Shown here in pieces: positions 917-19,356 of a stretch of DNA of 64,000 nt. The notes beneath the pieces are model-generated. The model was not told where the DNA came from. It saw only the letters and a program-made list of their open reading frames with translations, and made no database searches. The stretch comes from Bacteroidota bacterium. GTDB taxonomy: Bacteria > Bacteroidota > Bacteroidia > Sphingobacteriales > Sphingobacteriaceae. How positions within the stretch are numbered: position 1 is the stretch's first letter; each line of letters opens with the position of its first letter. The DNA lies in contig JABDCF010000004.1 of NCBI GenBank assembly GCA_013288235.1, forward strand, positions 1-64,000, in the 5' to 3' direction. A program made the position numbers and the translations under genes.

Positions 917-2608
917 TTACCAAAAGAAAGTATACAAAGCAGTAAGTATAACAGCAATTACTATAGCACCAATCGCAAAGCTTCGGTTGGTCTTAAACAT
1001 ATTTACGTCTACCTCTAATCCGTTTGTACGCAATCCTTTTGCGTTCTCAATCATCGATATAATATACATACCCACAATACAGATTATAAATACAAAACCC
1101 ATCCTATCCAAAAAAGGAATTTCATAGACGCCATCGGCATTTAGCTTTGAAAAACCAAAGGGCTGCAGGAAGGAAAGGTTAGTCCAATAGGGCAAAAACT
1201 TGAACACGATAGCAAATCCAAGACCACCTATTGTTGCAAATAATGCAGCATTTGAAGTTGCCTTTTTCCAGAAGAAGCCTAAGATAAACATGGCAAATAT
1301 ACCAGGTGATACAAAACCTGTGTATTCCTGTATATACTGGAAGCCTTGTTTGCCTTCGCCCATTAACATATCGCCAATGACAAATGATAATAAAACGCCC
1401 AATACCATTGCAACCACTACGGCTACTTTACCAGTATTAACAAGATTTTTTTCTGATGCTTTTGAGTTTATCGCCTTTTTATAAATATCTAATGTAAATA
1501 TGGTGGCTATGCTATTTGCTTTGCCTGCCAAAGATGCCACAATAGCTGCCGTTAATGCGGCAAATGAAAGTCCTTTGAGGTAATTGGGCAATAAGTTAAG
1601 TATCGAAGGATATGCTTTATTGACATCTAAAACGCCTTTTGAGCTTAACATTTCATGGTGAAACATACCCTTCTGATAAAGCACGTATGCCGCTATGCCT
1701 GGCAACACTACAATAACCGGCATAAGCAACTTTAGAAAAGCTGCGAAAAGGATACCTGACCGGGCTGTTTTAAGATCGGCTCCAAGCGCTCTTTGTGTGA
1801 TGTATTGGTTACAACCCCAGTAATTTAAATTGGTGATCCACATACCGCCGATAAGCACCGAAAGACCCGGCAAATCGAGGTAATTGGCGTTGCCTTTTTT
1901 GAATATCATTTGGAAGTGGTCGCTGGCATCTGCACGTAATAGCTTGAAGCCGTTCCAAAGTCCGGTTGTACCAGATTTTTCGCTTATCAAATGCAGCGCG
2001 ATGTATGTAGCTGCCAGGCCGCCCAACACAAGGAAAAATACTTGTATAACATCGGTATAACCTATAACTTTCATGCCGCCCAACGTGATAATTATAGCAA
2101 AAACCGCTAATAAAACGATTACAAGTCTCAAGTCCAAGCCCGAAATACCTGCTATTGCAACCCCGCCCAAATAAAGTATCGACATCAGGTTCACAACAAT
2201 ATAAAGCATTAGCCAAAATATAGCCATGATCATAGCCACAGTGCCATTGTACCGCTGGTGAAGAAACTGCGGCATGGTAGCTATTTTATTTTTAAGGTAA
2301 ACTGGTATAAAAAATACGGCGACTATGACCAGCGTTGCTGCCGCCATCCATTCATAAGTACTAATTGCCAGCCCCATTTTAAAACCCGAGCCGCTCATCC
2401 CCACCATCTGCTCAGCGGAGATATTCGAAGCGATCAGCGATGCACCTATTGCCCACCATGTTAATGAACCTTCGGCCAAAAAATATCCTTTGGAGGTACC
2501 GTCACTCTTATTTTTGCGCCGGTATACCCACCAGCCGTAAAGAGATACTACTATAAAGTAGAAAAGAAATACAGCATAATCGCCGATAGAAAGGGTTTTC
2601 AAGTTCAT
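917..2608 (-). CDS. Sodium/solute symporter (SSS family), probable xylose transporter
   Basis: The 563-residue protein is dominated by hydrophobic helices, about 14 by eye, as in the SSS/SGLT family (Na+-coupled sugar uptake through the inner membrane). The N-terminus carries the family's first helix and the AIGASLIASNISAEQ region around residues 52-66, near the sodium site. There is no signal peptide, as expected for this family. It is the last gene of the xylB-xylA-symporter run on the minus strand, 131 bp downstream of xylA, so D-xylose is the likely substrate. The family assignment is firm; the substrate comes from context only. Other sodium:sugar symporters (galactose, glucose) would look the same. 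Confidence 0.85.
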   Translation of the reverse strand: MNLKTLSIGDYAVFLFYFIVVSLYGWWVYRRKNKSDGTSKGYFLAEGSLTWWAIGASLIASNISAEQMVGMSGSGFKMGLAISTYEWMAAATLVIVAVFFIPVYLKNKIATMPQFLHQRYNGTVAMIMAIFWLMLYIVVNLMSILYLGGVAIAGISGLDLRLVIVLLAVFAIIITLGGMKVIGYTDVIQVFFLVLGGLAATYIALHLISEKSGTTGLWNGFKLLRADASDHFQMIFKKGNANYLDLPGLSVLIGGMWITNLNYWGCNQYITQRALGADLKTARSGILFAAFLKLLMPVIVVLPGIAAYVLYQKGMFHHEMLSSKGVLDVNKAYPSILNLLPNYLKGLSFAALTAAIVASLAGKANSIATIFTLDIYKKAINSKASEKNLVNTGKVAVVVAMVLGVLLSFVIGDMLMGEGKQGFQYIQEYTGFVSPGIFAMFILGFFWKKATSNAALFATIGGLGFAIVFKFLPYWTNLSFLQPFGFSKLNADGVYEIPFLDRMGFVFIICIVGMYIISMIENAKGLRTNGLEVDVNMFKTNRSFAIGAIVIAVILTALYTFFW

Positions 2609-2670
2609 TATTTGGCTTTAATTTTAAGTTTAATTGTTTGGCTGACAATTATAGTTATTTTTTATTTAAA

Positions 2671-2740
2671 AGTTGATTGAGTTAGATTAAGTTCTATAAT
2701 AAACACCTGTCAAACCCAATCAACCGCTCACCCAATCAAC
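2671..2740. repeat. Intergenic hairpin with TTGATT-type word repeat
   Basis: One arm reads AGTTGATTGAGTTAGATTAA and the other CCCAATCAACCGCTCACCCA followed by ATCAAC. They pair imperfectly around a short AT-rich loop, and the second arm touches the xylA stop codon. The same word recurs at 39480-39582, 55955-56096, 61433-61746 and 63545-63662. Confidence 0.6.
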
Positions 2741-4065
2741 TAAATATACCTGTTGATCAGGTTTTCTATATACTCTTGTTTGCCGCTGGTTGTGCCAGGT
2801 TCGCCGTTTTCAATGGCATAAGCCCTTAGGTCTTCCAACGATAGTTTGCCGTCTTCAAAGGCCTTCCCTTTTCCTGTGTCAAACGAGTCATATCTGTCTT
2901 TGCGAAGCTTTAAGTATTCAGATTTTTGCAGAATGTTATCGGCAGTGATCAAAGCCCTTGCAAAAATATCCATACCGCCAACGTGTGCATAAAACAAGTC
3001 GGCCGGATCCGTTGAGTTACGGCGTATTTTGGCATCAAAGTTTATACCGCCGCCCTGGAAACCGCCTGCTTCCAGTACGATCATCATTATTTCGGTAACC
3101 TCGTTTATATCATTCGGGAACTGGTCGGTATCCCAGCCATTCTGGCTATCGCCGCGGTTTGCATCCATCGATCCTAATAAACCTGAATCTGCAGCTACCT
3201 GTAGTTCATGCTGGAAAGTATGACCGGCCAGCGTAGCATGGTTAACCTCAAGGTTTAGTTTAAAATCGTTAATCAGGTCGTATTTTTGCAAAAAGCCCAA
3301 TACGGTAGCGGCATCATAATCATACTGGTGCTTTGTTGGCTCACAAGGTTTTGGTTCGATAAAGAACGTCCCTTTAAAGCCTTGTTTTCGGGCGTAATCT
3401 TTAGCTGTATGAAGGAATTTAGCCAGGTGTTCCTGCTCGCGTTTCATATCGGTATTCAAAAGGGACATATAGCCTTCCCTCCCACCCCAAAACACATAAT
3501 TTTCGCCGCCAAGGGCAATAGTAGCATCCATAGCGGCTTTTACCTGCGCACCGGCATGGCTAAGTACATGAAAATCAGGATTGGTAGCAGCGCCGTTCAT
3601 ATATCTGCGGTGACTGAAAAGGTTTGATGTCCCCCAAAGCAGCTTTACACCACTTGCTGCCTGTTTTTGTTTGGCATATTCAACTAATGCCTGCAAGCGC
3701 CTGTCGTTTTCATTCACATCATTGGTGTAATCAACCACATCCACATCGTGGAAGCAGTAATAATGCAGCCCCATTTTGGTAATAAATTCAAATGCGGCGT
3801 CCATTTTATCTTTGGCGCGCCCAACGGCGTCGGCTTTTTCATTCCATGGGAATAAATGGGTTGGTTCGCCAAATGGATCGGCGCCGCTGCCGCAGAACGA
3901 ATGCCAGTAAGCGCAGGCGAAACGTAAATGATCTTTCATAGTTTTGCCTGCTATAACCTTATTTTCATCGTACCAGCGAAAAGCCAACGGGTTATCCGAC
4001 TGTATGCCTTCAAATTTTACCTGGCCTATGCCTTTAAAATATTCCCTTTCTCCTGTAATTATCAT
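2740..4065 (-). CDS. xylA: Xylose isomerase
   Basis: The 441-residue protein converts D-xylose to D-xylulose in the cytoplasm using two divalent metals. It matches the long (class II) xylose isomerases in length. It has the expected FCFHD-type histidine region (here YYCFHDVDV), the FWGGREGY motif, the metal-binding FIEPKP glutamate, [13 protein letters not shown], and the GSMDANRGD segment. It lies between xylB (88 bp upstream) and the symporter gene on the same strand, consistent with one xylose operon. No truncation or missing motif is apparent. Confidence 0.97.
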
Positions 4066-4153
4066 AATTATTGAATTGTTGAATTAGTGAATTATTGATT
4101 TGCTGTTATTTCAAACTTATAAAGTTTTAAAACTCTGTAAGTCTTTGGGTGAT

Positions 4154-5632
4154 TTAGTTTTCCAATTGTTTTTCAAGTAGTTTTTTCCATTGCTGGTAAA
4201 CCGGTTCAAGTTGTTTTGACGATGGTTCAATCAATTGTACCGGGTGCATATATTCAAACGCCTCCTTTGCTGATGAAAATATCCCAGCCCCTATGCCTGC
4301 GCCAAGCGCAGCGCCAACGCTGCCATCGTTTCTATAAAGCTCAACGGGTACACCGGTAATGTTTACAAAGGTTTCTGTAAAAAGCTCACTTAAAAACAGG
4401 TTATTTTTACCAGCCCTTATTACGGTCGGATTCATCCCGTTTTCACGCATAATATCAAGCCCGTAACGGAACGAAAAGGCAATCCCTTCCTGCACTGCCC
4501 TAATCACATGTGCTTGCGCATGAATGTTCAGATCGATATTTTTGAACTGCGCGCCAACTATTTTATTGTTCAACATACGTTCGGCACCATTTCCGAAAGG
4601 TAATACAAGCAGGCCAGCGCTCCCTACGGGCGCTTCTTTCGCTTTGACATTCATTTGCAAATAGCTTTCTGTTGAACCGAATGCATTTTTTAACCATCGG
4701 TACATACTACCGACGCCATTGATGCACAATAATACACCCAGGCGTTTTTGTTGTTCCGCATAATTTACGTGGGCAAATGTATTTACCCGCGACTGCTTAT
4801 CATAAGCCAATTGGTCGCTTACGCCGTAAATGACGCCCGATGTGCCCGCAGTCGCCGCTACTTCGCCAGGGTTAAAAACATTTAGTGAAAGTGCATTGTT
4901 CGGTTGATCGCCAGCTTTATAACTAACAGGTATACCGGGTTTTAATTTCAGATTTTGCGCGATGGACGCAAGCAAACCGCCATGCCCCGAAAACACTGGC
5001 TGTATCTCTGGAAAAAGCGTTTTATCAAAACCAAAATAGTTTATTATTTCGTTTGACAATCGATTGTCGACAAAGTCAAAAAATACGCCTTCTGATAGCG
5101 AAGAAACCGATGTATTTATTTCGCCCGTAAACCGCATAGAAATAAAATCTCCGGGCAGCATAAATTTGTCTGTTTTCTCATAAATTTCGGGTTCATTTTC
5201 TTTCACCCAAGCCAACTTTGAGGCAGTAAAATTACCGGGAGAATTTAACAGGTGTGACAAGCAATGCCCAGCCCCCATCGCCTCAAAAGCTTTATCGCCA
5301 ATTTCAACAGCGCGGCTATCACACCAGATTATACTGTTGCGCAATACATGCTGATCTTTGTCCACCAAAACCAACCCATGCATTTGATAAGCGACACCTA
5401 TAGCTGCAATGTCCAAAGGGTTGTAAAAATTGGTTTTATTGCATAATTCAATAGCCTGTTGTGTATGCTCCCACCACATTTCAGGCGATTGCTCTGCCCA
5501 GCCGGATTGAACGGCAATTATAGGACTTTCCGTATCAGGAAATGAGGCTGATGCTATCACTTTTTGTGATGCCGCATCAACCACTGACACTTTTATAGAT
5601 GAAGTCCCTATATCTATTCCTAATAATAACAT
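4154..5632 (-). CDS. xylB: Xylulokinase
   Basis: The 492-residue protein phosphorylates D-xylulose to xylulose 5-phosphate, feeding the pentose phosphate pathway. It has both halves of the FGGY carbohydrate kinase fold. The N-terminus has the LLGIDIGTSSIK phosphate-binding loop, the WCDSRA and DFISMRFTGE segments follow, and the C-terminal lobe has the GSVGAALGAGIGAG segment. Length is normal for XylB. It is the first gene of the operon; the 216-bp divergent gap to the LacI regulator holds a candidate operator. An additional palindrome, GACAATCGATTGTC at 5055-5068, is embedded in its coding sequence. Confidence 0.95.
   Translation of the reverse strand: MLLLGIDIGTSSIKVSVVDAASQKVIASASFPDTESPIIAVQSGWAEQSPEMWWEHTQQAIELCNKTNFYNPLDIAAIGVAYQMHGLVLVDKDQHVLRNSIIWCDSRAVEIGDKAFEAMGAGHCLSHLLNSPGNFTASKLAWVKENEPEIYEKTDKFMLPGDFISMRFTGEINTSVSSLSEGVFFDFVDNRLSNEIINYFGFDKTLFPEIQPVFSGHGGLLASIAQNLKLKPGIPVSYKAGDQPNNALSLNVFNPGEVAATAGTSGVIYGVSDQLAYDKQSRVNTFAHVNYAEQQKRLGVLLCINGVGSMYRWLKNAFGSTESYLQMNVKAKEAPVGSAGLLVLPFGNGAERMLNNKIVGAQFKNIDLNIHAQAHVIRAVQEGIAFSFRYGLDIMRENGMNPTVIRAGKNNLFLSELFTETFVNITGVPVELYRNDGSVGAALGAGIGAGIFSSAKEAFEYMHPVQLIEPSSKQLEPVYQQWKKLLEKQLEN
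5055..5068. promoter_or_regulatory. Intragenic palindrome resembling the LacI-type operator
   Basis: GACAATCGATTGTC is a perfect 14-bp palindrome inside xylB and shares the CAATCGATTG core with the two intergenic sites at 5806-5817 and 12295-12306. LacI-family proteins often use an auxiliary intragenic operator, so this could be one. It could also be chance within coding sequence. Confidence 0.35.
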
Positions 5633-5655
5633 TCTTTGTATGGGTTATAACGATA

Positions 5656-5762
5656 AAGAGCCTGGAAGCAAGAACAAAGACATCGACGGCTAACTTGATA
5701 TTCAAGACTTCTTCAACTTTGCGTCTTGGCTCTTAGTTCTTGATTCTTTGTTCCTGGTTTTT
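5656..5762. repeat. Intergenic imperfect hairpin, TCAAGAAC/TTGGCTC word repeat
   Basis: The left arm contains CCTGGAAGCAAGAACAAAG and the right arm contains CTTGGCTCTTAGTTCTTG followed by a TTTGTTCCTGG segment, which is roughly its inverted copy. It lies in the divergent gap between xylB and the regulator, upstream of both genes. The same word family occurs between the trehalose genes at 44049-44118. Confidence 0.55.
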
Positions 5763-5805
5763 TTTGGTACTTTTCAGCAACGAAATTAAATTATTTTTTT
5801 AATCC

Positions 5806-5817
5806 GCAATCGATTGC
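5806..5817. promoter_or_regulatory. Candidate LacI-type operator (xyl cluster)
   Basis: GCAATCGATTGC is a perfect 12-bp palindrome with a central CG, the classic shape of a LacI/GalR operator half-site pair. It lies 32 bp before the LacI-family gene start and 174 bp from the xylB start. An identical 12-mer occurs upstream of the esterase gene at 12295-12306. Confidence 0.65.
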
Positions 5818-5848
5818 CGACATTTATTTTATCATTTTTACAAAATAT

Positions 5849-6883
5849 ATGAAAAACAGGAAAAGGACTACTATTTATGACATCGCCGAAAAGTTGAATA
5901 TTGCCGCTTCTTCGGTTTCCAGAGCGTTAAATAATAGTAACCATGTAAACGAGGCCACAAAAAAATTAATATTAAAAACCGCCGCCGAATTAAATTACAA
6001 ACGCAACACTCTTGCCTCAAATCTGCGCAAGGGCCAATCCAAAACCATCGGGGTGATAGTGCCATTCATAAATCAGAACTTTTTCTCGAACGTTATTGCG
6101 GGAATTGAAGAAGCATCTTATCAAAAAGGTTATAATCTTATCATCTGCCAGTCAAATGAACTGCAAAGCAAAGAAATTAAATGTGTAAATACGCTCATCA
6201 ATCAGCATGTAGATTGTATAGTAATATCCTTATCGGTGGATAGTAACGACCACCGGCACCTGCAAAATGTAATAGATAATGGCATACAGCTGATCCAGTT
6301 TGATCGCGTTGCCGATGAACTGGAGACTTTGAAAGTTATTAATGATAACGAACAGGCTTCGGAGGAAGCTGTTTCGCACATGATAGAACAGGGGTATAAA
6401 CGCATCGCCTTATTGGAAGGCCCGCAAAACCTGCAGATATTCCGTCAACGCAAAACAGGCTATTTAAATGCGTTAAAAAAACATGGGATGCCCATTTTGG
6501 ATGAGCTGATCATTGAAAATGCCTGGACAAAAGAACTCGGCGCCAACGCCACCCGTAAATTGTTAAACCTTCCCAAACCACCCGATGCTATATTTGCCTC
6601 TACATCTGATTTTTCGGCACTGGGCGTACTTGAAGTAGCGTCGGCAATGGGTATAAAAGTACCATCGGAATTGGGTATCTGCGGCTACTCGAACGAGGCC
6701 TTTACCGAGATCACCAGCCCATCCATCACCACCATCGACCAGTTTAGCGTGTATATGGGCAAAACCGTTGCCAACCTTTATTTCCAGGAATTGGATAATA
6801 AGGAAGAAACTGAGGTGATACCAAAGATCATCAGTATCAAGCCAAAGCTGATTGTGAGGTCATCGACGAAGAGGATTGGGTAA
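5849..6883 (+). CDS. LacI/GalR-family transcriptional regulator of the xylose cluster
   Basis: The 344-residue protein has an N-terminal LacI helix-turn-helix at about residues 8-30 (TIYDIAEKLNIAASSVSRAL), then the hinge helix NYKRNTLASNLRKG. A periplasmic-binding-protein-like effector domain begins at KTIGVIVPF. Length is typical for the family. It is divergent from xylB, and the palindrome GCAATCGATTGC lies immediately upstream of its start, so it probably controls itself and the xyl operon in response to xylose or a derivative. A second identical palindrome at 12295 suggests a wider regulon. The effector and sign of regulation are not visible. Confidence 0.92.
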   Translation: MKNRKRTTIYDIAEKLNIAASSVSRALNNSNHVNEATKKLILKTAAELNYKRNTLASNLRKGQSKTIGVIVPFINQNFFSNVIAGIEEASYQKGYNLIICQSNELQSKEIKCVNTLINQHVDCIVISLSVDSNDHRHLQNVIDNGIQLIQFDRVADELETLKVINDNEQASEEAVSHMIEQGYKRIALLEGPQNLQIFRQRKTGYLNALKKHGMPILDELIIENAWTKELGANATRKLLNLPKPPDAIFASTSDFSALGVLEVASAMGIKVPSELGICGYSNEAFTEITSPSITTIDQFSVYMGKTVANLYFQELDNKEETEVIPKIISIKPKLIVRSSTKRIG

Positions 6884-6934: not shown

Positions 6935-7408
6935 TCAATTGCTTGAGGAGGCATCCGTACTTAAAAGTTGTTCATGTGTTATTTCAATAGCCTCTACTGC
7001 TATTTCATTCCCGTCAGATTTAAGGTCAGTGCTTGTAATTTTTGTTGGCCATGCGTTAATTAATTGCCACTGCATAGTTATTTTGCCGTTTTCATCAAGC
7101 AACCTGATCAATATTGTTTCCTTTTTGACCGTGCTCATAGCTATTTGATTGCGCCACACCCAAAAGTCATTGTTATTTACGAAAATCCCCCTTTTCAGGC
7201 TTATTATGGCGTATTTTACGATACCGGGCATTTTAATAGTTGAAAAGAAGGGGCTTTCGCTTTTCCGGTACTCTATCGCCTGGTTTTCTGGATCCATCCC
7301 TGAAGCTTCCTGGAAAGGTATACCTTTTAGCGTTGGTGTAAGATCAACTTCAAACAGAAATTTTGGCGTAGGCCACGTAGCGCCTTGCTGGTTATCGTTA
7401 TCTGCCAT
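6935..7408 (-). CDS. Phage tail tube-like protein (T4 gp19 family), orphan
   Basis: The 157-residue protein resembles the conserved phage tail region / gp19 family that forms the inner tube of contractile tails, including extracellular contractile injection systems. Visible family traits are the N-terminal PKFLFEVDLTPTLKGIPFQEASG segment, the EYRKSESPFFSTIKMPGIVKY block, a KRGIF plus WRNQI helix region, and a late WPTKI segment before a short C-terminal tail; length is usual for the family. No sheath, baseplate, spike or AAA+ partner gene is present anywhere in the window, so it stands alone, flanked by metabolic and secreted-protein genes. It may be a dispersed accessory tube subunit or a leftover of a lost injection cluster. 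Confidence 0.75.
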   Translation of the reverse strand: MADNDNQQGATWPTPKFLFEVDLTPTLKGIPFQEASGMDPENQAIEYRKSESPFFSTIKMPGIVKYAIISLKRGIFVNNNDFWVWRNQIAMSTVKKETILIRLLDENGKITMQWQLINAWPTKITSTDLKSDGNEIAVEAIEITHEQLLSTDASSSN

Positions 7409-8118: not shown

Positions 8119-9258
8119 TTAAAGCCTGTCCAGCGCATTAATACAGATAACAGGTATCGCTACATTAATACCCACATAAAAAATAAACGTAATGATAAAG
8201 GTGATCCATTTATTTAATGTATTTAAGCCAGGATTATGCCGGAAAAGATATTTTATAAGTGTCTCCCTCCCAGCAATCAGTAATACGGTTACAAGGCTGA
8301 TATCGTTTACAATTTCAGCAACCGAAATGGCGCCCGTGGCGGGTATCCTTGACATGATGATATTCAATGTTGCCGCCGCAAAAAACAAGCTGCCCACTAT
8401 TACCCTCATTTTGTCGTTCTCAGATGCAAAAAAAGACAGGAAACCTAATAGGGCGGCTATATAAAGCGTAACAAAAACTTTGAGATAAATACCAACCCCG
8501 CCCCTTTTTATAAATACCGCAAACCTCAGTTGTGAATGTGTATTACGCTGGCTTTGAATTTTTCGCGGATCACCCAATGACGATTTAATTGTATGGGCTT
8601 TTGAAAGGATAAAATTTTTACCGATCTCAAAACCCGTTACTGACACCCTGCTGCTCACATTTGAATTGGCCGTATCGGGCACAAAAGCAAACTGGTGTAC
8701 ATCGTAGCTAACGCTTTCCAATTGTATGGCCAACAGATAATTATCCAACGGGTATTGGGATACATCGAAGAATTTGGTACTTGAGCCCACAATGTGAAAT
8801 AAAACATAGGCAGAATCGCCTTTGCTGTTCAAGTAAAACGAATGTGTTTCAATATGTTCAATCGAGCCGTTTACAATTCTTACCGGCGCATTTTCAATCG
8901 TTATGGCGCCTTTTGCGGAATCTTTTAAATTGATAAAATTAATTTTCTTCGGATCCCATTTAAACCAGGCATAAAATTCATAGCTCCATTTAGCATGTAC
9001 TATATCAAAATCCTGGATGCGGTCTAAATATACCCCGCCAATTACATGCTCAGGCTTCGATTCTTTTACCTGTGCCCAATCTATTTTCGTTAGCCCGATA
9101 TCATCTTTCACAGGGCTTAGTTCAGCTTCTTTTTTCTCCCGATTTTCCGCAATAATTTGTTTGATATAGTTCTGACAGTAAACAAACAATACTACTAAAC
9201 AAACTATTTGAAACAAGCCGATTACCGCAGCCTTAACGATATTTGGTTTTGAAAACAT
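8119..9258 (-). CDS. Pentameric ligand-gated ion channel (Cys-loop-like) homologue
   Basis: I assign this 379-residue protein to the pLGIC superfamily from its architecture and short motifs. An N-terminal hydrophobic anchor lies at about residues 10-29. A beta-rich extracellular domain follows at about 70-255. Its YPLD at 169-172, followed by LAIQLESVSYD, corresponds to the FPFD and following strand of the family loop, without the eukaryotic cysteines. Four C-terminal helices follow at about 257-277, 285-303, 316-335 and 351-372. The M2-M3 link RIPATG resembles the LPxT turn of prokaryotic channels. Such proteins form cation- or anion-selective pores gated by ligand or protons; gating and selectivity here are unknown. 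The retained N-terminal membrane segment is unusual, since bacterial pLGICs normally start with a cleaved signal. Confidence 0.7.
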   Translation of the reverse strand: MFSKPNIVKAAVIGLFQIVCLVVLFVYCQNYIKQIIAENREKKEAELSPVKDDIGLTKIDWAQVKESKPEHVIGGVYLDRIQDFDIVHAKWSYEFYAWFKWDPKKINFINLKDSAKGAITIENAPVRIVNGSIEHIETHSFYLNSKGDSAYVLFHIVGSSTKFFDVSQYPLDNYLLAIQLESVSYDVHQFAFVPDTANSNVSSRVSVTGFEIGKNFILSKAHTIKSSLGDPRKIQSQRNTHSQLRFAVFIKRGGVGIYLKVFVTLYIAALLGFLSFFASENDKMRVIVGSLFFAAATLNIIMSRIPATGAISVAEIVNDISLVTVLLIAGRETLIKYLFRHNPGLNTLNKWITFIITFIFYVGINVAIPVICINALDRL

Positions 9259-13633: not shown

Positions 13634-13660
13634 TCTCAAATCTCATATCTCACATCTAAA
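13634..13660. repeat. ATCTCA-word direct repeat at the convergent gene ends
   Basis: A run of TCTCAAATCTCATATCTCAC followed by ATCTAAA reiterates an (A)TCTCA(A) word. It runs into the stop codon of the response regulator gene. No inverted arm is evident here, unlike most other word-repeat loci in this window. Confidence 0.4.
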
Positions 13661-14291
13661 CTATCCTGTTTTTCAGTGCTTTTGCTACCGCCTCGGATTG
13701 GTTATGCACATGTAGCTTTTCATAAATATTGCGGATATGGCTTTTTACAGTTTCGAAACTGATATTAAGTGCGGCAGCTATCATTTTATAGCTATGCCCT
13801 TTTACAAGATCGTTAAGTATTTCTTTTTCACGAACTGTGAGATCGTATTTTTCTATCGCGCCATAACTGCTCTGCACAAGATGATCTAAAACCATGCGTG
13901 CAATATTAGCACTAAGCGGCGCGCCGCCTTCAAGTGATTCTGCAATAGCGACAAACAATTTCTCAAAACAATATTTCTTTAATAAATATCCAGAGGCGCC
14001 GGCGCATATGGCTGCTATCACGTTTTGATTATCATCAAAAACGGTAAGCATTATAATTTTCACTTCTTTGTTAACCTCCCGGATCAACCTAACTGCCTCT
14101 ATCCCACTTCTTAAGGGCATATCGATATCCATCAGGATAACATTGGGCTTTAAGGTTTCAATGTCATTTAAAACATCTATGCAATTTTGAAAAGCTCCTG
14201 CACAAACATAGCTATCAGATGTATTAATGAGTTGTACCAATGCCTCGCACAAGTCGGTGTTATCCTCGTATATCAAAATGTTTGTTTTCAT
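13656..14291 (-). CDS. NarL/FixJ-type response regulator
   Basis: The 211-residue protein has an N-terminal receiver domain: acidic pocket YEDN at residues 8-11, phosphoacceptor Asp at about 55 in ILMDIDMP, Thr at about 83 in MLTVFDD, and Lys in LLKK at about 104. A C-terminal LuxR-type HTH follows (LTVREKEILNDLVKGHSYKMIA, then NISFETVKSHIRNIY). It would dimerise and bind DNA on phosphorylation. It follows the sensor kinase gene by 114 bp on the same strand, and the two form an evident pair. Targets are not visible; the nearby outer-membrane barrel gene at 17800 is one candidate. Confidence 0.93.
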   Translation of the reverse strand: MKTNILIYEDNTDLCEALVQLINTSDSYVCAGAFQNCIDVLNDIETLKPNVILMDIDMPLRSGIEAVRLIREVNKEVKIIMLTVFDDNQNVIAAICAGASGYLLKKYCFEKLFVAIAESLEGGAPLSANIARMVLDHLVQSSYGAIEKYDLTVREKEILNDLVKGHSYKMIAAALNISFETVKSHIRNIYEKLHVHNQSEAVAKALKNRIV

Positions 14292-14405: not shown

Positions 14406-17400
14406 CTACCGAAATCGGGGGATATGGAAACTCAAAGAGACGGAAGTGCCTTTATTTTTTTCGCTTTTAATATTAAATACTGCATCAATTTTACTTGCCC
14501 TATGCTTCATATTGTATATGCCATTGCCCGGAGAAACCGATTTCAGGCTAAATCCTTTGCCATTATCGTTTATGGTTAGGGTGCAGATATCTTTTTGCCT
14601 TGTTAAACGAATTTCAATAAAAGTGCATTGGGCGTACTTTGAGGCATTACAAATAGCTTCTTTAAAAATAAGATATAGTTCCTTCCTTGTCCCCATTCCA
14701 ATTTTCAGGTTTTCCATATCACCCTCAACAATTAAGTTGAACGGAATGCCCTGTACTTCTAATATCTCAGCAAGATATTCACGTGCTTTTCGTAAAAAAT
14801 TATCCACACTGTCATTCCTGGTATTGATAGACCATACGATATCTGATAATGCATCAAGTGTTTTTTCAGACCGGCTGCTTATTTTTTCCAGTAATTCGCG
14901 GCTGCTATTTTGGTCTGAGTTTATTTTCTGTAAAGCAATCTTGCTAAAAATATTTATCCCGCTAAGCGTCGAGCCTATATCGTCATGCAGGTCACGCGCT
15001 ATTTTGTCGCGCAGTTGAAGCGTCATTTGTAGCTGGTTCATCTTGTAGGCGTATATTATGTATATCATACTTACAATAATTGCGACAACGCTTAAATAAA
15101 ACCACCATCGGTGCCAGAAAGGGGGAGAAATGATAAGGATAAGCTTAGCCGGGACATTATTCCATACGCCTTCATTATTACAGGCTTTTACATTAAAAAT
15201 GTAAGTACCTTCATCTAAATTGGCATAAGAAACATAACGGCGCGTACCTGCATCATTCCATTTTTTGTCCAGGCCGACCATTTTATAAGCGTATCTGTTA
15301 AGTTTTGGCTGGGTGTAGTTTAGCGCAACATATTCAAACGAAAAATAGTTTTGGTTATAGTCCAGTTTAATAGTTTCTCCCTTGTGTATATCGTAATTCT
15401 TATCAAAGATCTTCAAATCGGTTATTAATACATCGGGGAACTGGGTGTTTTTCTGGATACTTGCCGGGTTAAAGTTGTATATACTGCCTTTGGTCCCAAA
15501 TGAAACGCTGCCATCATCATCGGCTATTATTGAATATAACCCGTCCAGGTTTTGAATGCCATCCTTTTTATCAAAAACCGTAAATTTTTTTTCTTGAAGA
15601 TTAAAATTAATCACGCCTGCGTTAGTTAATAGCCAAAGGTTATTTTGTTTGCCGGGTACTATAGATAAAACATTCATCGAAGGCAGGTCATCTTTAATCG
15701 TTGTTATTAATGGATTTTTAAGCCCCCAATCTGTTTTCCATAAGCCGTAATTCTCAGTGCCTATCCATACGTCCTTCCCATTTTTATAAATTGTATTAAT
15801 TGTAAGGTTATTAAATATAGCATCGTTTGTATTATTCCACCGTACCTTTTCATACCTGCCTATATTGGTGTGCATTAAAATTAACCCAGTAAAATATCCG
15901 CTTGCCAGCATGCTGTCGTTTGATAGTTCGCAAAATGTATTTATTTCATTTATTTTATCTAATGAGTTTCGTTGTATATAATGATATGAGATGAATTTTT
16001 TTGAGATGGGATCGAACCTGAAAATGCCATCACTGTGTGTACCGATCCACATCCTGTTCTCTTTATCAATATACAAAGCAGTTATTATGCTTTTAATGTC
16101 ATCCGTTTTAAATATTTCAGACTTCATCAAAGCAACGTTAGCACCCGCATTCCTGACAACTTTTACCAGCATATTTCTTGAAGTAAACCAAGTAGTTTCG
16201 TTTCTGTCCTTAGTTATATTAAATACTGCGAAGTTCTCGGGCAGGCCTAAAACCTTGCTGTAATCAGTCAATATGCCTTTATGTTGGTCATAGGTAAATA
16301 TGCCTTCATACATGCCCATCCACCACAAGCCATCCTTTTCTTTAAGCATGCAAATGGGTGAAATATGAGCCGGTACAAGCCCCGTATCTGTTTTTAACAG
16401 CAGGTCCGTTTTTGAAAGGTTAATTTGGTGGGGATCACATTTAAATATCCCGTTTTCCGAACCGATCCAGATAATATCCGACCTGTCGCGAAATAAGGCT
16501 ACCACCGACCCTGATATTTTATTTTCACTTTTCCACTCAACAGGATAATTGATAAATTTATTTTTTGACGGGATAAATATCGTCAGCCCGCCTTCTTTAT
16601 TACCGATCCAAATGTTGCCATCCCGGTCGGGCAATAAGGACTTTATTATTTTATATGGTACAAGATTAACATTGTCTGTTTGGTGCGACCATGATTTTAT
16701 TTTTTCCGTTTTAGGATCAAACATCACAAGGCCTGCCCCCCAGGTGCCAAACCAAACATTACCTGCCTTGTCGATCAGTGACTTTGTAAAAGGTATCTTC
16801 GAATTTTTGTCTATCCTGGGAAAAATTGGTATATCAGGATGATAGAATTTGTAACTGCCGTTTGATTTGGTAAAACAGTAAAAACCATTAGCCCCGGTTA
16901 AATATAGATGCCCCTTATGGTCATCGGCGAGTGAACTTATGCCTACGTTTCTTCCAAAAGCCGGAATTTTATGCCACTGGCTTGTTTTTTTATTAAATTC
17001 ATATAAACCATCGGCCGTCCCCGCCCAAAAAACCGAATCGTTCTTTGGAAGTATGGCAAATACATCCCGGAATTTTTTTGCCTGAAAATTTCTTATCCGC
17101 TGCGAACTGATATCAATACAACTTAAGCCCGCTATCGACCCTATCCACAAATTTTTATTTTCAGGATATAAAAACCAGATTGTGTTATTAACTAAAGAAG
17201 TAGAGTCACCCGGTAAATTTCTGAACGCTTTATAACTGTAGCCGTCATACCTGAAAAGCCCCTCGCCAGTACCAAACCAAATAAAACCATCTTTGTCCTG
17301 CTGTATATCATTTATATAGTTGTTTGAAAATTCTTCATCCTGTACTTTTTCAATATGCAGGTTTTCGATATTTTGCCCATATATTGAAGATGTTATGCAC

Positions 17401-17483
17401 AACAAGTAAAAAACGACGAGTGGAAATGGAAGATCAAAGGCCTTTTTTAGTGATAGGGAATATTTAATAAGGCACAACTTCAT
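14406..17483 (-). CDS. Sensor histidine kinase with periplasmic two-bladed propeller and Y_Y_Y domain
   Basis: The 1025-residue protein has an N-terminal signal/anchor (about 16-36), then many reg_prop propeller repeats (for example DKDGFIWFGT, DRDGNIWIG, DKENRMWIGTH). A Y_Y_Y immunoglobulin-like domain follows at about 700-785 (YVALNY, RYAYKMVGLDKKW). One transmembrane helix lies at about 793-812, then a HisKA_3 domain with the phosphoacceptor His near 833 (RDLHDDIGSTLSG), and an HATPase_c domain with N-box near 946 and NDNGKGF near 973. This is the sensor half of a hybrid two-component layout, but it stops after the kinase. Receiver and HTH are on the separate NarL-type gene downstream. Propeller sensors of this type commonly detect oligosaccharides. 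Confidence 0.93.
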   Translation of the reverse strand: MKLCLIKYSLSLKKAFDLPFPLVVFYLLCITSSIYGQNIENLHIEKVQDEEFSNNYINDIQQDKDGFIWFGTGEGLFRYDGYSYKAFRNLPGDSTSLVNNTIWFLYPENKNLWIGSIAGLSCIDISSQRIRNFQAKKFRDVFAILPKNDSVFWAGTADGLYEFNKKTSQWHKIPAFGRNVGISSLADDHKGHLYLTGANGFYCFTKSNGSYKFYHPDIPIFPRIDKNSKIPFTKSLIDKAGNVWFGTWGAGLVMFDPKTEKIKSWSHQTDNVNLVPYKIIKSLLPDRDGNIWIGNKEGGLTIFIPSKNKFINYPVEWKSENKISGSVVALFRDRSDIIWIGSENGIFKCDPHQINLSKTDLLLKTDTGLVPAHISPICMLKEKDGLWWMGMYEGIFTYDQHKGILTDYSKVLGLPENFAVFNITKDRNETTWFTSRNMLVKVVRNAGANVALMKSEIFKTDDIKSIITALYIDKENRMWIGTHSDGIFRFDPISKKFISYHYIQRNSLDKINEINTFCELSNDSMLASGYFTGLILMHTNIGRYEKVRWNNTNDAIFNNLTINTIYKNGKDVWIGTENYGLWKTDWGLKNPLITTIKDDLPSMNVLSIVPGKQNNLWLLTNAGVINFNLQEKKFTVFDKKDGIQNLDGLYSIIADDDGSVSFGTKGSIYNFNPASIQKNTQFPDVLITDLKIFDKNYDIHKGETIKLDYNQNYFSFEYVALNYTQPKLNRYAYKMVGLDKKWNDAGTRRYVSYANLDEGTYIFNVKACNNEGVWNNVPAKLILIISPPFWHRWWFYLSVVAIIVSMIYIIYAYKMNQLQMTLQLRDKIARDLHDDIGSTLSGINIFSKIALQKINSDQNSSRELLEKISSRSEKTLDALSDIVWSINTRNDSVDNFLRKAREYLAEILEVQGIPFNLIVEGDMENLKIGMGTRKELYLIFKEAICNASKYAQCTFIEIRLTRQKDICTLTINDNGKGFSLKSVSPGNGIYNMKHRASKIDAVFNIKSEKNKGTSVSLSFHIPRFR

Positions 17484-18750: not shown

Positions 18751-19356
18751 CTACTTCTCGCAAGCGGGGTCGTCTGTGACTATCTTTTTTTCGATTCTTC
18801 TATCAGGGATAAACCACACACAGGCAACCAAAATATAAAGCCCGAAACTTACAGTTGAATTTAGCCATGAAATGCCGATAGCAATGGCATAAATACATAT
18901 AGATATATTACCCTTCCAGTCCTTCCCTATAGCTTTGGCTAGCAATGAATTTTTGCCATGATGTCTTATCAGCGCCAGCATTAAAAGCCCGTAGGCTATT
19001 GCATTCATTAGCAGCACAACACCATAACAAGTAACTGGCCAGCGGGCAAAATCATTTTCGCCCATCCAGGCAGTAACAAATGGTACCAGCGAAAGCCAGA
19101 AGAGCAAATGCATATTTGCCCAAAGAATGGTACCATTTACCGATTCAGCTGCCTGCATGGTATGATGGTGATTATTCCAGTAAATGCCAATGTATATAAA
19201 ACTAAGGATGTAGCTGATAAAAACCGGGCAAAGCGGCAACAACGACCTGATGTCGGCACCATGCGGACCGCCTGGTATTTTCAACTCCAAAACCATTATA
19301 GTAATGATAATGGCGATAACACCATCGCTGAATGCTTGTAAACGTCCTTTGTCCAT
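18751..19356 (-). CDS. TMEM175-like (DUF1211) membrane protein, putative potassium channel
   Basis: The 201-residue protein starts with the family signature RLQAFSDGVIAIIITIMVLE, whose FSDG motif lines the pore in TMEM175 channels. About six helices follow, with HHHTMQAAESVNG and WLSLVPFVTAW in the usual places. Bacterial members form tetrameric, weakly selective K+ channels in the inner membrane. Length is normal. It follows the quinoprotein gene at 154 bp on the same strand, with a word-repeat hairpin between them, so co-transcription is doubtful. Confidence 0.88.
   Translation of the reverse strand: MDKGRLQAFSDGVIAIIITIMVLELKIPGGPHGADIRSLLPLCPVFISYILSFIYIGIYWNNHHHTMQAAESVNGTILWANMHLLFWLSLVPFVTAWMGENDFARWPVTCYGVVLLMNAIAYGLLMLALIRHHGKNSLLAKAIGKDWKGNISICIYAIAIGISWLNSTVSFGLYILVACVWFIPDRRIEKKIVTDDPACEK

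Follow-up and report, generated by a model that had tools for sequence, protein, structure and literature searches.

The window, i.e. the whole stretch of 64,000 nucleotides analysed here, carries on its minus strand a gene for a 379 amino acid protein resembling pentameric ligand-gated ion channels (pLGICs; 8119..9258, ATG start, exact ORF bounds). Orthologous copies are present in two other genomes (loci L001 and L002; 80% and 73% identity), and the three copies are hereafter referred to as the window clade. Whole-gene pairwise dN/dS among them is 0.04–0.08 at saturated dS (2.1–4.0), and because of this saturation the ratio tells no more than that protein change has been strongly limited. 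A separate profile of 18 relatives scored the window protein at 125 bits and reported none of 1000 shuffled versions of it. Orthologous copies, low dN/dS, and the shuffling result confirm that the ORF is real and not due to chance.

The pLGIC-like gene stands by itself: 147 nt separate it from the end of a polysaccharide deacetylase gene upstream, and 82 nt downstream a PEBP-family gene begins on the same strand. A sialate-type esterase and a gp19-like protein are also encoded in the neighbourhood. None of these neighbours recurs beside L001 or L002, as judged by eye from the ORFs of 120 aa or more lying within some 6 kb; synteny was thus rejected as a clue to function, and no ligand can be inferred from it. 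The gp19-like gene (6935–7408, minus strand) encodes a homologue of the T4 tail tube protein (PF06841, E = 3e-36); other phage or contractile-tail genes were not evident by eye among ORFs of 130 aa or more in positions 1–30000. The window further encodes a bacterial TMEM175-type potassium channel homologue (18751–19356, minus strand, PF06736, E = 1.1e-33), a two-component regulator-propeller histidine kinase (14406–17483) with an adjacent LuxR-type response regulator (13656–14291), both on the minus strand, and, at 917–6883, what we take by eye to be a sugar-use cluster of an SSS-type transporter, xylose isomerase-like and xylulokinase-like proteins, and a LacI-type regulator.

The pLGIC-like protein begins with a single N-terminal hydropathy peak at residues 10–28 (9175..9231, Kyte-Doolittle mean 2.65), a probable signal-anchor helix, followed by a charged linker with six K+R and seven D+E (residues 29–62, 9073..9174). 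The predicted ligand-binding-domain region, delimited by full-length profile alignment, spans residues 63–252 (8503..9072) and contains the Pro-loop motif Y169-P-L-D172 (8743..8754); it ends with the pre-M1 Arg252 (8503..8505), by homology the salt-bridge partner of D172. Four C-terminal hydrophobic stretches (residues 253–281, 283–305, 308–338, and 348–377) fit four helices. With hydropathy and low-confidence DSSP assignments combined, and with alignment columns in addition for M1 and M2, the helix regions were placed at residues 255–277 (M1, 8428..8496), 284–302 (M2, the putative pore helix, 8353..8409), 313–341 (M3, 8236..8322), and 348–377 (M4, 8128..8217). The M2-M3 turn R304-I-P306-A-T-G309 (8332..8349) carries the conserved Pro at 23'. 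The DSSP assignments derive from an AlphaFold2 model built on an alignment of three sequences only (pLDDT 36.2, pTM 0.30) and served as weak support for helix positions. The motifs that a preliminary description of this DNA had named were all found (YPLD at 169–172, LAIQLESVSYD at 176–186, RIPATG at 304–309), and the four C-terminal helices it had proposed are seen both by hydropathy and as low-confidence predicted helices.

Direct searches nearly failed to assign the protein to a family. The window protein and L001 matched no Pfam family, PF02931 and PF02932 included, and L002 reached 15.7 bits against a gathering cut-off of 26. TIGR00860 matched the window protein with E = 0.0012 (17.6 bits) and L002 more strongly (E = 2.8e-6, 26.4 bits), at a model cut-off of 280.2. 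In a phmmer search against PDB, GABA-A and glycine receptors (E = 0.1–0.96) ranked behind matches to exfoliative toxin (the top four, E = 0.027–0.05) and endopeptidase, which we regard as chance as they span 41–82 residues with E = 0.027–0.66. A BC85_0335 match was rejected for scoring under its own cut-off, and a profile of the three window-clade sequences gave no PDB match at E ≤ 0.1.

The assignment was instead made through bridging relatives with about 20–28% identity, and is transitive because direct searches fail. Of four such relatives scanned against Pfam, two passed the PF02931 gathering score of 26 (L011, 28.3; L018, 27.8) and two fell narrowly under it (L012 and L027, both 25.9). 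All four relatives scanned against NCBIfam matched the model NF033918 'ligand-gated ion channel' (LGIC_1) under its cut-off with E = 1.6e-12 to 1.1e-20; the NCBIfam scan gave no NF033918 match for L001 or L002. A profile built from 18 relatives, with the window clade left out, retrieved 245 PDB sequences at E ≤ 0.001 (best E = 3.6e-28), of which the 60 listed are, by molecule name, GLIC and GLIC chimeras; with the window clade included, glycine receptors were also among the PDB matches listed. Profile–profile alignment with hhalign joined the window clade to the relatives over residues 62–368 (99.85% probability, E = 9.6e-31), which shows homology across that span. The only gene that the relatives-only profile found in the window's own genome was the window gene itself (E = 1e-40). 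By these profile comparisons the gene can firmly be placed in the pLGIC superfamily, and the protein is, as judged from sequence, a divergent relative of the animal neurotransmitter-receptor channels. The preliminary description had called it a bacterial pLGIC homologue and proposed a search with channel-family HMMs; the homology holds through profiles built on relatives (PDB, hhalign, own-genome search, and shuffles), whereas a direct family match is nearly absent. Surveys that rely on direct Pfam scans, which miss this divergent member, would undercount the family.

Residue conservation was assessed in an alignment of 55 unique ORFs shorter than 460 aa, taken from 88 that matched, with ORFs sharing the same C-terminal 250 residues collapsed to one; neither longer ORFs nor the copies L058 (Azospirillum) and L059 (Streptomyces) are among these rows. 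Among the most conserved superfamily positions listed in Table 1 of PMC4795631, the window protein keeps six of seven (Y169, P170, D172, F210, R252, and P306), the exception being the M1 Pro, replaced by T264. P170 corresponds to the Pro of the β6-β7 loop given there as 100% conserved in the superfamily and is Pro in 54/54 other rows, as is the pre-M1 Arg252 an Arg in all 54. F210 provides the aromatic residue (W, F, or Y) of the β9 core, and the M2-M3 loop Pro P306 and a basic residue at M2 0' (K283) are likewise present, with F292 at 9'. The preliminary description had singled out YPLD in place of FPFD. The motif is there, but its Tyr is unremarkable because the same table gives F/YPxD as the superfamily motif, and 25% of sequences have the Tyr. 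A Cys loop is absent, as expected of bacterial members (Cys only at residues 20, 28, and 372). The M1 14' position is Thr264 in all three window-clade copies, whereas the 52 other rows have Gly (41) or Pro (11) in this kink column; superfamily frequencies of 77% Pro and 5% Gly (PMC4795631) make the kink residue a common but not an obligatory feature.

The predicted pore differs as well. Counting back from the M2-M3 Pro as 23', Arg285 (8404..8406) falls on position 2', where Arg is present in 3/3 window-clade copies and in none of 64 other sequences (0/52 alignment rows and 0/14 rows of the separate Bacteroidota family f47, two being repeated). Among the rows compared, Arg285 at 2' thus appears as a newly seen feature confined to the window clade, and as a sequence fact it alters the putative pore. 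In its predicted pore the window protein also has acidic D282 at -1' and basic K283 at 0'. Position -2' is Asp or Glu in 46/52 other rows, whereas the window clade has Asn at -2' and Asp at -1', an assignment that in other rows hangs on the variable M1-M2 loop, where two alignments place the acidic residue of f47 differently. The alignment gap in this loop is about three residues; M2 from 0' to 23' is aligned without gaps. An E-[RK] motif before M2 has been associated with cation channels (PMC549065); D282-K283 resembles it, while the Arg at 2' would argue the opposite way.

Genes of the window type were found in 3/149 genomes of the genus at E ≤ 1e-30, the window's own included. A scan of one genome per species (84,980 species by description) gave two close-relative loci, the window's own genome being possibly absent from that set. 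At E ≤ 0.001, and with the window's own genome counted, pLGIC-like genes occur in 43/301 genomes of its family and 29/395 sampled Bacteroidota genomes. The family is thus patchy, in keeping with its preliminary description as rare in bacteria, yet it extends beyond the few model cases to which that description had mostly confined it. The window's own genome shows one copy only (incomplete assembly of 4.37 Mb in 224 contigs, 70.6% complete), and G279 holds both a window-type and a standard copy, so the two types can coexist. Ten plasmid records carry pLGIC-like genes (eight Azospirillum, two Streptomyces); relatives were absent from viral contigs in two scans. The gene on a plasmid of Azospirillum sp. 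B510 (L061:1851–2891) is annotated as 'hypothetical protein', adjoins an alanine racemase gene, and has peptide/ABC substrate-binding genes nearby; the Streptomyces plasmid copies are likewise annotated as 'hypothetical'. Partial pLGIC-like matches also lie in frames of 721–1074 aa (L087–L089 in G639, G374, and G388; also G504 and G508), which possibly encode extra domains as in DeCLIC.

Genes related to L034 are present in 14/15 genomes of f47. Of the 14 copies read (L093–L106; a 219 aa fragment of the same type, L107, was set aside), 12 start with basic residues and continue with a hydrophobic segment and a charged linker; of the other two, L097 is truncated by its contig end and L106 has no linker. 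Strict cleavage-like sites are present in 8/12, most of them where the hydrophobic segment ends, and the N-terminal 29 residues share a mean of 40% identity (range 21–69%, 58 pairs, L097 and L106 left out). The f47 layout therefore gives no independent support for a tether. A core-only tree, calculated without L050, L060, L061, L084, L086, and the N-terminal columns, groups the window clade with L034/L035 (support 87/68), but long branches meet nearby and the kinship it suggests is not conclusive. The full tree gives no clear grouping of this kind, and in both trees the branch of the window clade is very long.

The layout of hydrophobic segment (residues 10–28) and linker (29–62) is shared by both orthologues and is thus conserved in three genomes. 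Identities in the three window-clade pairs are 59, 68, and 59% for residues 7–28, 76, 74, and 71% for the linker, and 81, 71, and 71% for the ligand-binding region, which makes residues 7–28 the least conserved of the compared segments in every pair. For comparison, relatives whose N-termini are short and hydrophobic have a signal-peptide region with a mean identity of 24% and a maximum of 57% in 283 pairs with 66–84% identity of the mature protein (283/325 pairs kept; pairs outside this range and those with L001–L004, L023, or L028 were left out). Segment and linker identities of the window clade lie above all 283 of these pairs, the segment narrowly (lowest value 59% vs. control maximum 57%), in a comparison of three window pairs with control pairs that share ancestry. 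Between residue 15 and the beginning of the ligand-binding domain, a search for cleavage sites under a strict AxA/VxA/SxA rule found none in the window copy or in L002; L001 has a single one at residue 18, which falls within its hydrophobic segment. Together, the identity of segment and linker and the scarcity of strict sites speak moderately for a segment retained under selection and against a cleaved peptide. The retained N-terminal membrane segment of the preliminary description is accordingly, on sequence evidence, the better-supported reading, and the window protein is on balance likely to be tethered at its N-terminus by a signal-anchor.

We consider it probable, as a whole, that the gene encodes a divergent Cys-less Pro-loop pLGIC of the inner membrane with an uncleaved N-terminal signal-anchor. 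The pentamer, its topology, its gating, and the uncleaved anchor are what we infer from the homology and features above. The N-terminal helix would most likely stay in the membrane with its basic end in the cytoplasm, and the charged 34-residue linker would climb along the outer face of the periplasmic ligand-binding domain until it reaches the N-terminus of that domain. Each subunit would thereby have five membrane helices instead of four. A putative periplasmic small molecule or ion would bind between subunits, and the signal would pass via the Pro loop (D172) and the pre-M1 Arg252, opening an M2 pore that presents D282 at -1', K283 at 0', and the unusual Arg285 at 2'.

An ordinary four-helix pLGIC, whose N-terminal segment would be removed as a signal peptide, the fate expected for that of the other Sphingobacteriaceae relatives, and whose long charged linker would come next, is a minor possibility that finds some footing in the low conservation of the hydrophobic segment relative to the other segments and in the relatives of the same family, all 28 of which have a hydrophobic N-terminal stretch, 23 with a strict site and 28 with a looser one. 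Cleavage-like sites, moreover, occur in 8/12 of the f47 copies that have a comparable segment and linker. In the window clade itself, a looser candidate, IIA (IIA|EN), lies at residue 37 of the window copy and L001 but is lost in L002, which has Val there, and the candidates at Cys28 and Thr57, present in all three copies, appear only under the widest rule. Cys and Thr are poor residues at position -1 of a cleavage site. The near lack of strict sites in the window clade and its segment and linker identities above each of the signal-peptide pairs also argue against cleavage. That the protein is no pLGIC but an unrelated membrane protein, made of a β-sandwich and four helices, whose motifs resemble those of pLGICs by chance, would agree with the missing Pfam families, the three-sequence profile without PDB match, and a structural model too poor to interpret; the full-length profile matches, the 0/1000 shuffles, and the six of seven superfamily positions kept make it highly improbable.

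A receptor with pLGIC fold whose pore is anion-selective or non-conducting, and which would work less as a cation channel than as a sensor or scaffold, is compatible with either fate of the N-terminus. We regard this as possible, though somewhat unlikely. It is suggested by the five Arg285 side chains that would line the narrow 2' ring, a residue particular to the window clade, by the loss of the acidic -2' residue typical of other rows, and by the Thr at the M1 kink in all three copies. It is weakened by the likeness of D282-K283 to the motif tied to cation channels (PMC549065) and by the gap in the M1-M2 loop alignment, although M2 itself is gap-free. More speculative still, and in our estimation unlikely, is a combination of these features, i.e. 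a branch of anion-selective or non-conducting proteins with five-helix subunits that tether the ligand-binding domain at both ends, a 2' Arg ring, and an M1 helix that has lost its kink. The N-extended f47 proteins might be the nearest kin of such a branch.

As a family, pLGICs are central drug targets, and their bacterial members serve as structural models. If the window protein does have a fixed N-terminal tether and a charged 2' ring, it would offer a natural system in which to see how gating responds to a constrained ligand-binding domain and how selectivity is set by pore charge. Titles and abstract starts listed from the open-access literature searched contained no report of the window gene, no paper joining pLGIC terms with Mucilaginibacter or Sphingobacteri, and, among the matches listed, no pLGIC with an extra N-terminal helix.

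Among known systems, the standard pLGIC-like proteins of Sphingobacteriaceae (e.g. L011, L018, and L027) resemble the window protein in full-length homology at about 20–28% identity, Pro loop, pre-M1 Arg, M2-M3 Pro, and a short M3-M4 loop. They differ in a short hydrophobic N-terminus with no linker in the rows viewed and, in 23/28, a strict cleavage-like site, and, in the alignment rows, in Gly or Pro at M1 14', in the lack of Arg at 2', and in mostly Asp or Glu at -2'. The f47 proteins (L034, L035, and L093–L105) likewise lead into the ligand-binding domain with a basic N-terminus, a hydrophobic segment, and a charged linker (12/14), but have F-P-x-D, Gly at 2', and Gly at M1 14' in 14/14, linkers that are unlike and of variable length, and cleavage-like sites in 8/12, so that their segment may be cleaved. 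GLIC, the proton-gated channel of Gloeobacter, aligns with the relatives' profile over nearly its whole chain but is far from the window protein in sequence, with no direct match by phmmer or the three-sequence profile, and presumably is without an N-terminal tether. It has the same coupling residues as the window protein (PMC4795631, Table 1) but a Pro at M1 14' (PMC4795631). Animal Cys-loop receptors differ in the Cys pair flanking the loop, which is absent from the window protein. DeCLIC and bacterial pLGICs with PBP-I or MCP-N/Cache N-terminal domains, as described in PMC9897478 and PMC549065, also have additions before the ligand-binding domain; theirs are globular domains, whereas the window protein has a single hydrophobic segment with a short linker in this place.
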